The notes beneath the pieces are model-generated. The model ran no database searches and was not told the origin of the DNA. It saw nothing but the letters and a program-made list of their open reading frames with translations. The position numbers and the translations under genes were made by a program. From Oceanivirga miroungae (GTDB taxonomy: Bacteria > Fusobacteriota > Fusobacteriia > Fusobacteriales > Leptotrichiaceae): 64,000 nt of DNA. Shown here one piece after another: positions 18,937-20,942 of this stretch. The stretch covers positions 882,688 to 946,687 of the forward strand of contig NZ_CABWIB010000001.1 in NCBI RefSeq assembly GCF_902505095.1. Reading direction: 5' to 3'. Positions within the stretch are counted from its first letter, which is position 1. Each line of letters starts with the position of its first letter.

Positions 18937-18966
18937 ATTATACCATTTTTAAAGCTAATTTTGCAA
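18937..18966 (-). promoter_or_regulatory. Promoter of the acyltransferase-fusion operon
   Basis: Minus-strand TTGCAA (18966-18961), an 18-base spacer and perfect TATAAT (18942-18937), about 30 bases before the start of copy 1. It lies back to back with the DUF3800 promoter. Confidence 0.6.
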
Positions 18967-18974
18967 ATAAATTG

Positions 18975-19003
18975 TTGACAATGTGTAGTTTTAGTGGTAA
19001 TAT
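18975..19003 (+). promoter_or_regulatory. Strong sigma70 promoter of the DUF3800 transcript
   Basis: Perfect TTGACA (18975-18980), exactly 17 bases, then TAATAT (18998-19003), one mismatch from consensus. Transcription would begin near 19010, leaving a leader of about 150 bases before the coding start, far longer than for other genes here. Confidence 0.75.
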
Positions 19004-19009
19004 TTAAGT

Positions 19010-19150
19010 ACAGCAAGGAATTAACTTGACTGTCTAATTTTCGTGGTCACCGAATGTAAATTTAAGCGACTTGTAAAGTCGTCGTCCGTGAAGACTAAAT
19101 GTAGTATAAAACTTTACCCGTGTACCTAATAAGTTACGGGTTTTAATTTT
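19010..19150 (+). ncRNA. Structured 5' leader RNA upstream of DUF3800 gene
   Basis: The leader between the promoter and the ribosome site has visible pairing: UUCG/CGAA (19040-19043 with 19051-19054), CGACU/AGUCG (19067-19071 with 19077-19081, plus a G-U pair), and ACCCGU/ACGGGU (19116-19121 with 19136-19141) followed by a U-rich tract, like an attenuator. AACUU at 19110-19114 can also pair with AAGUU at 19131-19135, interleaved with the last stem, so an alternative fold or pseudoknot is possible. It is less A/T-rich than the rest of the intergenic DNA. Structured RNAs are known upstream of DUF3800 genes in other bacteria; membership in a named motif was not tested. Confidence 0.5.
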
Positions 19151-19163
19151 GAAAGGAAAAAAA

Positions 19164-19856
19164 ATGAATCTATATATATATTCTGATGAGTCTGGAGTTT
19201 TTGACAAGAAAACAAATGATTTTTTTGTTTTTGCTGGTATACTATTTACATCAAGAGATGATAGAAATAAGTTAAAAAGTAAATACTTAACTCTTGAAAA
19301 AAGTATTAAATATGACAAAGAAATATCACCTAAGGAAGAATTAAAAGCTTCTAATTTAGCAAATAAGACAAAAAAAAGACTTTATTCTTATCTAAAAGAT
19401 GTTATAAAGTTTTCAGTTATAATTGACCTTAGAAAGCTTTATGATTATAAAGGTAAGGATAATAAGCAAAGATATTTAGATTATGCCTTCAAAATTGGAC
19501 TTAAAAGAACTTTAAAAAAATTAGAGAAAAATAATATACTGAAGCTAAATGAAATTGAAAGAATATTTATAGAATGTGATGAACACACAATAGCTACCAG
19601 TGGAATTTATGATTTACGTGATACTATTTATAATGAATTTAAGTATGGTGTTGTAAACTTTAATCATAATGCTCAATATGGTGCTATTATTCCTGATTTA
19701 GTAGATGTTGAAGTAAAATATTTAGATTCTAAAAATAACGCACTTATTCGTTGCGCTGATATTGTATCAAACTTTGTTTATACTTCTTATAGAGACTTTA
19801 ATATAGCTAGAATAGAAAAATTAAATAATGAGGTATATATTGAACTGTTACCTTAA
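19164..19856 (+). CDS. DUF3800 domain protein
   Basis: A 230-residue protein starting MNLYIYSDESGVF. The hallmark DESG near the N-terminus, FVFAGILF, the central IFIECDEHT strand and the late RCADIVSNFVY segment match DUF3800, a family thought to have an RNase H-like fold with acidic active-site residues; no reaction is established here. The start is ATG 19164 behind AAAGGA; an in-frame TTG at 19149 lies upstream of that site. It is one of only two plus-strand genes, has its own strong promoter, a structured leader and its own terminator, so it looks like an independent cassette inserted between operons. Acquired origin and a defence or RNA-related role are guesses from context. Confidence 0.85.
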   Translation: MNLYIYSDESGVFDKKTNDFFVFAGILFTSRDDRNKLKSKYLTLEKSIKYDKEISPKEELKASNLANKTKKRLYSYLKDVIKFSVIIDLRKLYDYKGKDNKQRYLDYAFKIGLKRTLKKLEKNNILKLNEIERIFIECDEHTIATSGIYDLRDTIYNEFKYGVVNFNHNAQYGAIIPDLVDVEVKYLDSKNNALIRCADIVSNFVYTSYRDFNIARIEKLNNEVYIELLP

Positions 19857-19860
19857 AAAT

Positions 19861-19880
19861 AAGGCTATATGCCTTTTTTT
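19861..19880 (+). terminator. Intrinsic terminator after DUF3800 gene
   Basis: AAGGC stem, TATAT loop, GCCTT and a run of T, starting four bases after the stop codon. Confidence 0.85.
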
Positions 19881-19944: not shown

Positions 19945-20041
19945 ATGGCATTAAATTTCATTTATTTTACTTTTAATTGTAGCGTTTTTTTGGTTTATAC
20001 CTAATAAAAAAATTAAAGGATTGGAGGATAATTTTGAATAA
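19945..20041 (+). pseudogene. Frameshifted small membrane ORF before the CDF gene
   Basis: An ATG at 19945 opens a frame (MAL) that, if one A in the run at 19953-19955 is skipped, continues through a hydrophobic helix (ISFILLLIVAFFWF) into a polar tail ending KGLEDNFE, then stops at 20041, overlapping the first eight bases of the transporter gene. As written, the ATG frame stops after 19 codons and the membrane frame has no ATG. The helix-plus-charged-tail pattern and stop-start overlap look like a small coupled gene with a one-base shift. It could also be chance or a sequencing error. Confidence 0.35.
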
Positions 20042-20942
20042 TAAATCAGAGAAAAAAGCCTTATTATTTGGGGTTTTGATAAATATAATAATGGGGATTG
20101 CAGGTATTTATATGTATTTCATAACAGATATAGATGCTTTATTTCTAGATGGTAGCTTTAGTTTAATTTCAGCAATTGGTTGTATTTTTGCAATTATAAT
20201 CACTAAATACTCTAATGTTAAAACTAAAAGATTCCCATACGGTTTAAACTTTTTAGAGCCACTATATGCTAGTATAAAAGGAATTTTTATTTTATCTTTA
20301 ATAATAGCTGCAGGTATTTCAGCTATTACTAAGTTATATAATTTCTTTTTCTTAGATAAGGGTCAAATTCTAGAAATGGGAGAAGTATTAAATTACTCTT
20401 TATTAATGACCGTTTTATGTTTTTTACTAAGTTATATATTTTATTACTATAACAAAAAAATTGGCAGAAAAAGTATAATATTAACTACGGAGTCAAAAGC
20501 ATCTTTTGTAGATGGAGTTATTTCATTAGGACTTGGAGTAGCAATTTTATTAATATCATTTTTACCAAAGCAAGGTAACACTTTATTTGTATATTATATA
20601 GGGGATTCTTTAATAACTATAATTTTAATTGCTTTTACTACTAAAGAACCTTTAGATGCATTTAAAGAAAGTTTTACTGAACTAATGTATGGAACAATTA
20701 AAAAGGGTAAAATAAAAAATGATATAGAAAGTATAATATCTAAAAAAGATGACGCTTTTTATACCGTTAATATATCTTCTATAACTATTCATAAAGTTGG
20801 TAAGAAAATAGATGTTAATATATTTATAGATATATCTAATAAAAATGTTAAACTCGTTGAGATATATGAATTTAAAACTAAGCTTTTTGCAGAGCTAAAT
20901 AAGAAATATAGAAATATAGGATTAAATATTGTATTAGACTAA
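20034..20942 (+). CDS. Cation diffusion facilitator (CDF) family transporter
   Basis: Probable divalent-metal/proton antiporter of the inner membrane. About six hydrophobic helices precede a soluble C-terminal domain (from about residue 215). The metal-site aspartates are visible in helix 2 (ALFLDGSFSL) and helix 5 (SKASFVDGVISL), the usual two CDF positions, though the helix-2 first ligand is alanine where many zinc CDFs have H or D. The 302-residue length fits. The start is TTG 20034, placed six bases after GGAGG. The metal cannot be told; iron, manganese and zinc are all possible. Confidence 0.82.
   Translation: MNNKSEKKALLFGVLINIIMGIAGIYMYFITDIDALFLDGSFSLISAIGCIFAIIITKYSNVKTKRFPYGLNFLEPLYASIKGIFILSLIIAAGISAITKLYNFFFLDKGQILEMGEVLNYSLLMTVLCFLLSYIFYYYNKKIGRKSIILTTESKASFVDGVISLGLGVAILLISFLPKQGNTLFVYYIGDSLITIILIAFTTKEPLDAFKESFTELMYGTIKKGKIKNDIESIISKKDDAFYTVNISSITIHKVGKKIDVNIFIDISNKNVKLVEIYEFKTKLFAELNKKYRNIGLNIVLD

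Follow-up and report, generated by a model that had tools for sequence, protein, structure and literature searches.

On the plus strand of the window (the whole 64,000-nucleotide stretch of Oceanivirga miroungae DNA that was analysed), a promoter, a small structured RNA and a gene for a DUF3800 protein follow one another in a cassette. The promoter of the RNA consists of TTGACA (18975-18980), a 17-nt spacer and TAATAT (18998-19003), with 10 of 12 hexamer positions matching, and is followed by a predicted DUF3800-I small RNA transcript (19010-19150) which would extend from A19010 (+1) to a U-tract. An RBS-like AAAGGA (19152-19157) lies ahead of the ATG at 19164, from which a protein of 230 aa is encoded as far as the stop ending at 19856, and a terminator-like stem (19861-19875) with a T-run (to 19880) stands 3' of the gene, in keeping with the terminator of its own that the original prediction had given it. 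That prediction also placed the cassette between minus-strand operons, which holds for the upstream genes but not for the downstream side, where the next gene, of the cation efflux family (20034-20942), is again on the plus strand. The cassette is surrounded by ordinary chromosomal genes, with no recognisable prophage. In a relative from the same genus (G001), the neighbouring acyl-CoA synthetase is present and both the cassette and the cation-efflux gene are absent, so that only one flank can be compared and the boundaries of an insertion cannot be set. A close relative of the cation efflux gene is absent from 10 of the 11 family genomes searched (there was one weak partial match), and so this neighbour is likewise lineage-specific.

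The RNA belongs to a known Rfam family, DUF3800-I (RF02969, held in Rfam under the entry type Gene; sRNA), as a divergent member. The match at 19003-19152 covers the model from end to end (1-115 of 115) at 49.3 bits against a gathering score of 44.2 (E 7.9e-07), and it is the sole DUF3800-I match across the genome. A cmscan of 18950-19250 found nothing besides RF02969 up to E 1, the abiF motif RF03085 included. The comparison with described DUF3800 RNA families that had been suggested for this leader thus ended in a family assignment, and the structured RNA claimed for it is confirmed. Because the -10 box ends at 19003, the predicted start, A19010, coincides with the first base of stem P1, which comprises 8 pairs (ACAGCAAG / CUUGACUGU, 19010-19033) and is paired in 96.9% of cells in homologues. 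The P2/P3/P4 core (19040-19092), with the conserved UUUAAGCG and a UGUAA loop, is built from P2a (19040-19045 with 19087-19092), P2b (19051-19052 with 19083-19084), P3 (19053-19055 with 19060-19062) and P4 (19066-19071 with 19077-19082). The terminator of the RNA (19116-19150) is formed by a CCCGU/ACGGG stem (19117-19121 with 19136-19140) and a U-rich tail; the equivalent of this stem, helix 7, is paired in 94.2% of cells in homologues, and a simple terminator scan misses the hairpin because its loop is too long. Stems P1, P2a, P3 and P4 as well as the terminator stem can each be formed by the window sequence. This copy resembles the family in sequence, helices and adjoining DUF3800 gene, but differs from it in having only 2 of the 4 P2b pairs and about 24 additional bases between P2 and the terminator (19093-19115 in the alignments), which are foreign to the family consensus and displace the terminator.

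The folding energy of the window RNA on its own is not unusual (z -0.61) and was therefore set aside as evidence, so that proof of structure comes from comparative covariation; folded as the family consensus, this RNA lies 13 kcal/mol above its predicted minimum. The comparative set was assembled from 11 seed proteins, with bacterial genomes contributing 80 loci and viral contigs another 60. Scanning the viral contigs with a single protein gave no relatives, whereas an alignment-based scan did detect them. Searching 163 sources with a covariance model made from 8 of the RNAs then gave 155 matches. In an alignment of 96 of these matches, standard pairs occupy 94.2% of pair cells, compared with 69.7% for shuffled and at most 43.4% for slid structures, and in 30 of the 34 pairs both partners have changed. 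As this alignment had been fitted to the structure, 28 RNAs were in addition aligned by MAFFT alone and folded unguided. Here the P1, P2, P4 and terminator helices were recovered, with both partners changed in 18 of 27 pairs; the short P3 did not appear in this fold. The lack of covariation among homologous leaders that had been named as refuting the original prediction was looked for, and very strong covariation was found instead. Among the 96 homologues, nested helix pairs account for all 23 of the most strongly covarying column pairs, and no pseudoknot, interleaved or alternative antiterminator pairing shows covariation in this set. The interleaved alternative pairing in the original prediction is accordingly unsupported.

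Linkage between the RNA and the gene is very tight. In 131 of the 135 loci tabulated the RNA adjoins the DUF3800 gene on the same strand, and in the other 4 the gene or contig is cut off near the expected RNA site. The RNA was found in every one of 50 whole genomes with the protein, in 49 of them as a single copy. The RNA lies upstream of the gene at 101 loci and downstream at 29 (one, with an uncertain start codon, was left unassigned), and a tree of 117 proteins shows one switch of side. The upstream layout typically leaves about 13 nt between the RNA and the start codon, apart from one locus (L107) with 3.7 kb between the RNA and a truncated gene. With a median of 13 nt, most upstream-layout members have too little space for the gene to have a promoter of its own, and it is presumably transcribed by read-through. 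In the Streptococcus phage Javan73 (L007:2619-3681), a Cro/CI-type HTH gene overlaps the start of the DUF3800 gene and the RNA is downstream, a layout also seen in Javan110 (L015).

Within the window, promoter-pattern sites are found at chance level (22, compared with 20.4 expected from shuffles), and a comparative promoter test was used in place of the pattern alone. At least 9 of 12 hexamer matches occur at the fixed promoter position in 89 of 113 related RNAs and in about 0.5% of nearby controls, so that the promoter proposed at 18975-19003 is upheld and its position is conserved. In the upstream and downstream layouts alike, the last base of the -10 box falls on the first model position and the -35 box starts 28 bases upstream of that position; when the RNA lies downstream, its promoter often reaches into the end of the gene. 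Since the RNA is equipped in both layouts with a terminator and a fixed-position sigma-70-type promoter of its own, DUF3800-I is, by comparison, an independent small RNA gene, with a transcript of probably about 105 nt in relatives and about 140 nt in the window.

The protein (PF12686, E 3.9e-14) has PF12686 as its only Pfam family above cut-off, and neither PADLOC nor NCBIfam returned a match; a sequence search of the PDB gave nothing convincing. A candidate HEPN_AbiU2 domain (Pfam) was rejected at 17.3 bits, below the cut-off of 26.8, and the predicted fold lends it no support. Based on 93 aligned proteins from the window and the loci, an AlphaFold2 model reached a mean pLDDT of 93.7 and a pTM of 0.90. 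When it was compared with the PDB using Foldseek, the first 20 matches were all RNase HII or RNase H2 chains, the best being the RNase HII 1eke (E 2.3e-05, probability 1.00). A nuclease-like protein with an RNase HII-like fold is thus predicted, and an RNase H fold has also been assigned to DUF3800 in a published prediction (PMC10910872). Residues D8, D139 and D199, all present in the window protein together with E9, are invariant across the 93 proteins, with E or D at position 9, and their positions in the modelled fold would fit an RNase H-type acidic site. The likeness to RNase HII lies in the predicted fold and the acidic active-site pattern. Identity in the ten best structural matches is, however, 11-15%, and DUF3800 has DESG and a linked RNA gene, whereas the RNase HII motif is DEAGRG. 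Most family proteins end in LP or FP; this conserved Leu/Phe-Pro C-terminus, present at 19856 in the window and in relatives, is also seen where no promoter overlaps the gene end.

Relatives of the cassette occur on a Streptococcus satellite phage, in prophages and on plasmids with phage genes. In plasmid-borne prophages, the cassette has the lysis genes on one side and the integrase or the end of the element on the other, and the commonest neighbouring domain families are integrase and endolysin. On viral contigs of at least 20 kb, it lies within 3 kb of a contig end in 20 of 26 cases, compared with 4.3 expected. The hosts named belong to Bacillota, Actinomycetota, Pseudomonadota, Spirochaetota and Mycoplasmatota, including some metagenome bins that are perhaps misassigned, and the RNA is present in 11 of the 98 genomes of the window's phylum in the collection. 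The cassette is mobile phage and plasmid cargo carried in an accessory position.

The RNA and the gene are not lost equally. This asymmetry was surveyed in 399 genomes drawn with the same settings, 98 from the window's class and 301 from one Lactobacillaceae-type family. Intact family proteins numbered 12, with the RNA adjacent in 11. The remaining locus (L264) encodes a distant, divergent DUF3800 relative beside which the RNA is not detectable, in a genome with a complete cassette elsewhere. The same genomes hold 25 RNAs, 11 with an intact gene, 3 with a broken gene and 11 with none. Pattern scans of viral contigs added 3 more independent orphan RNAs (L208/L215, L217 and L232), and in the L232 phage only the first codons of the gene remain. 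The orphan RNAs retain their structure and most retain a promoter-like sequence. That the protein is lost and the RNA kept, and hardly ever the other way round, is the trace expected of a toxin and its antitoxin; it is suggestive rather than proof, and decay of the gene may alternatively be the plain loss of a useless one.

From this comparative pattern, we consider it somewhat more likely than not that the cassette is an RNA-protein toxin-antitoxin or abortive-infection pair, in line with the RNA-protein partnership that had been put forward for this locus, with an RNA-controlled toxin or defence among its options. The RNA would be transcribed from its sigma-70-type promoter and stopped by its own terminator, and in the window layout the nuclease gene just behind that terminator would be transcribed by read-through. 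With the gene reached by read-through alone, the RNA would be expected in large excess. The folded RNA would then bind the RNase HII-like protein in trans and keep it inactive, until this balance is upset, for instance by a phage shutting off host transcription, and the freed nuclease stops growth or phage multiplication. In the downstream layout the gene and the RNA have separate promoters, so a ratio set by read-through could not be general. Further points against the pair are the window's setting among ordinary chromosomal genes, the lack of a detectable RNA beside L264, and the lower stability of the window RNA in its consensus fold. A wider proposal, offered tentatively and at a little less than an even chance, is that DUF3800-I RNAs are the antitoxins of an unrecognised toxin-antitoxin or abortive-infection class, with an RNase HII-like toxin, an RNA on either side of its gene and RNA-alone decoys on phages and other elements.

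Two known kinds of system offer precedents for such a pair. In phage phi027 of Clostridioides difficile, an RNA of about 100 nt, RCd22 (RF03085), has a SigA promoter and a terminator just before the abiF gene, lies in the lysis module, and binds AbiF in trans and counteracts it (PMC12373285). The layout is nearly identical to that of the cassette and the prophage lysis-module setting is similar, but AbiF/RCd22 has its own RNA family and an Abi_2 protein, whereas the cassette combines RF02969 with PF12686 and its RNA can also lie downstream. Type III toxin-antitoxin systems (ToxIN, CptIN and TenpIN) have the order promoter, RNA, terminator and toxin (PMC5086642), and the window repeats it with a nuclease-like gene in the last place; both are phage-linked. 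Type III RNAs are, however, tandem repeats, whereas no tandem repeat array is present in the window RNA (a single 17-nt pair matches at 71% only); their toxins are of the ToxN/CptN/TenpN type rather than RNase HII-like as predicted here, and the order of parts in the cassette is reversible, as the relatives with a downstream RNA show. Since the repeats and toxins of type III are lacking, the locus is proposed to act like type III systems and AbiF/RCd22 while being a member of neither.

The RNA family itself is already known, as one of several DUF3800 RNA families in Rfam. No description of the function of DUF3800-I was found in the literature searched, nor was a functional case uniting the gene-order switch, the RNA's own promoter, the RNase HII-like partner and the orphans. 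The comparative evidence turns a structured RNA upstream of DUF3800 into a testable proposal of an RNA gene paired with a nuclease. If this is true, the RNA-antitoxin systems would gain both a toxin fold and an RNA fold that are new to them.

The tight linkage would fit equally well if the RNA activated or guided the nuclease. The main rival, unlikely but deserving serious consideration, is that the RNA is not an inhibitor and serves instead as cofactor or guide, an obligatory part of a defence nuclease that depends on RNA. Beyond the near-obligatory linkage, this fits an RNase H-type fold, the fold class of many RNA-dependent nucleases, and the finding of DUF3800 proteins with Cas12a2 systems (PMC10910872). 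However, the RNA has no variable guide-like segment, being nearly all paired with conserved loops, and RNA without protein is far commoner than the reverse, which would be odd for a cofactor unless the orphans are decoys. A cis-acting leader (an attenuator, riboswitch or autoregulatory element) governing DUF3800 expression would account for the RNA standing before the gene in the window and the upstream-layout relatives, with its terminator usually just ahead of the ribosome site. Yet in 29 of the 130 relatives whose side is assigned, the RNA and its promoter lie behind the gene, a place that rules out an mRNA leader or attenuator; geneless RNAs exist, and the alternative pairing is without covariation, which leaves this reading highly improbable. 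The hairpin before the ribosome site, originally taken for an attenuator, is the RNA's terminator, and control by a ligand or protein finds no support, although some control by read-through may come in secondarily, as with RCd22. Least probable of all is a processing role for the nuclease, with the RNA going on to act elsewhere: the RNase HII-like fold and the constant partner RNA would suit this, as would orphans able to work alone, but those orphans would be left without a processor, and the whole structure is conserved, terminator included, with no hint of a shorter conserved product.

For the toxin-antitoxin reading, a further parallel is pseudo-ToxI, an antitoxin-like RNA mimic carried by a phage that has no toxin (PMC3475682). 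Orphan DUF3800-I RNAs are similar in being phage-borne in the absence of the toxin gene, and one might speculate that they act as decoys in the manner of pseudo-ToxI. The viral orphans L217:3638-3743 and L208:935-1044, one directly behind an endolysin gene and one about 1.4 kb from an integrase, are candidate RNA decoys. Other orphans have different neighbours. In three related genomes (L016, L018 and L019; RNA at 1501-1610), the RNA's own DUF3800 gene is absent and the RNA lies directly ahead of a small operon made up of a 64-aa ORF and a gene for a GNAT-like protein, a possible swap of partner. In two other related genomes (L017:625-737 and L026:1501-1613), an orphan RNA is upstream of a 354-aa RelA_SpoT-domain protein (PF04607, E 1e-17), and a further orphan (L021:1501-1621) is flanked by an HTH/ImmA-type pair and a phage-type integrase.
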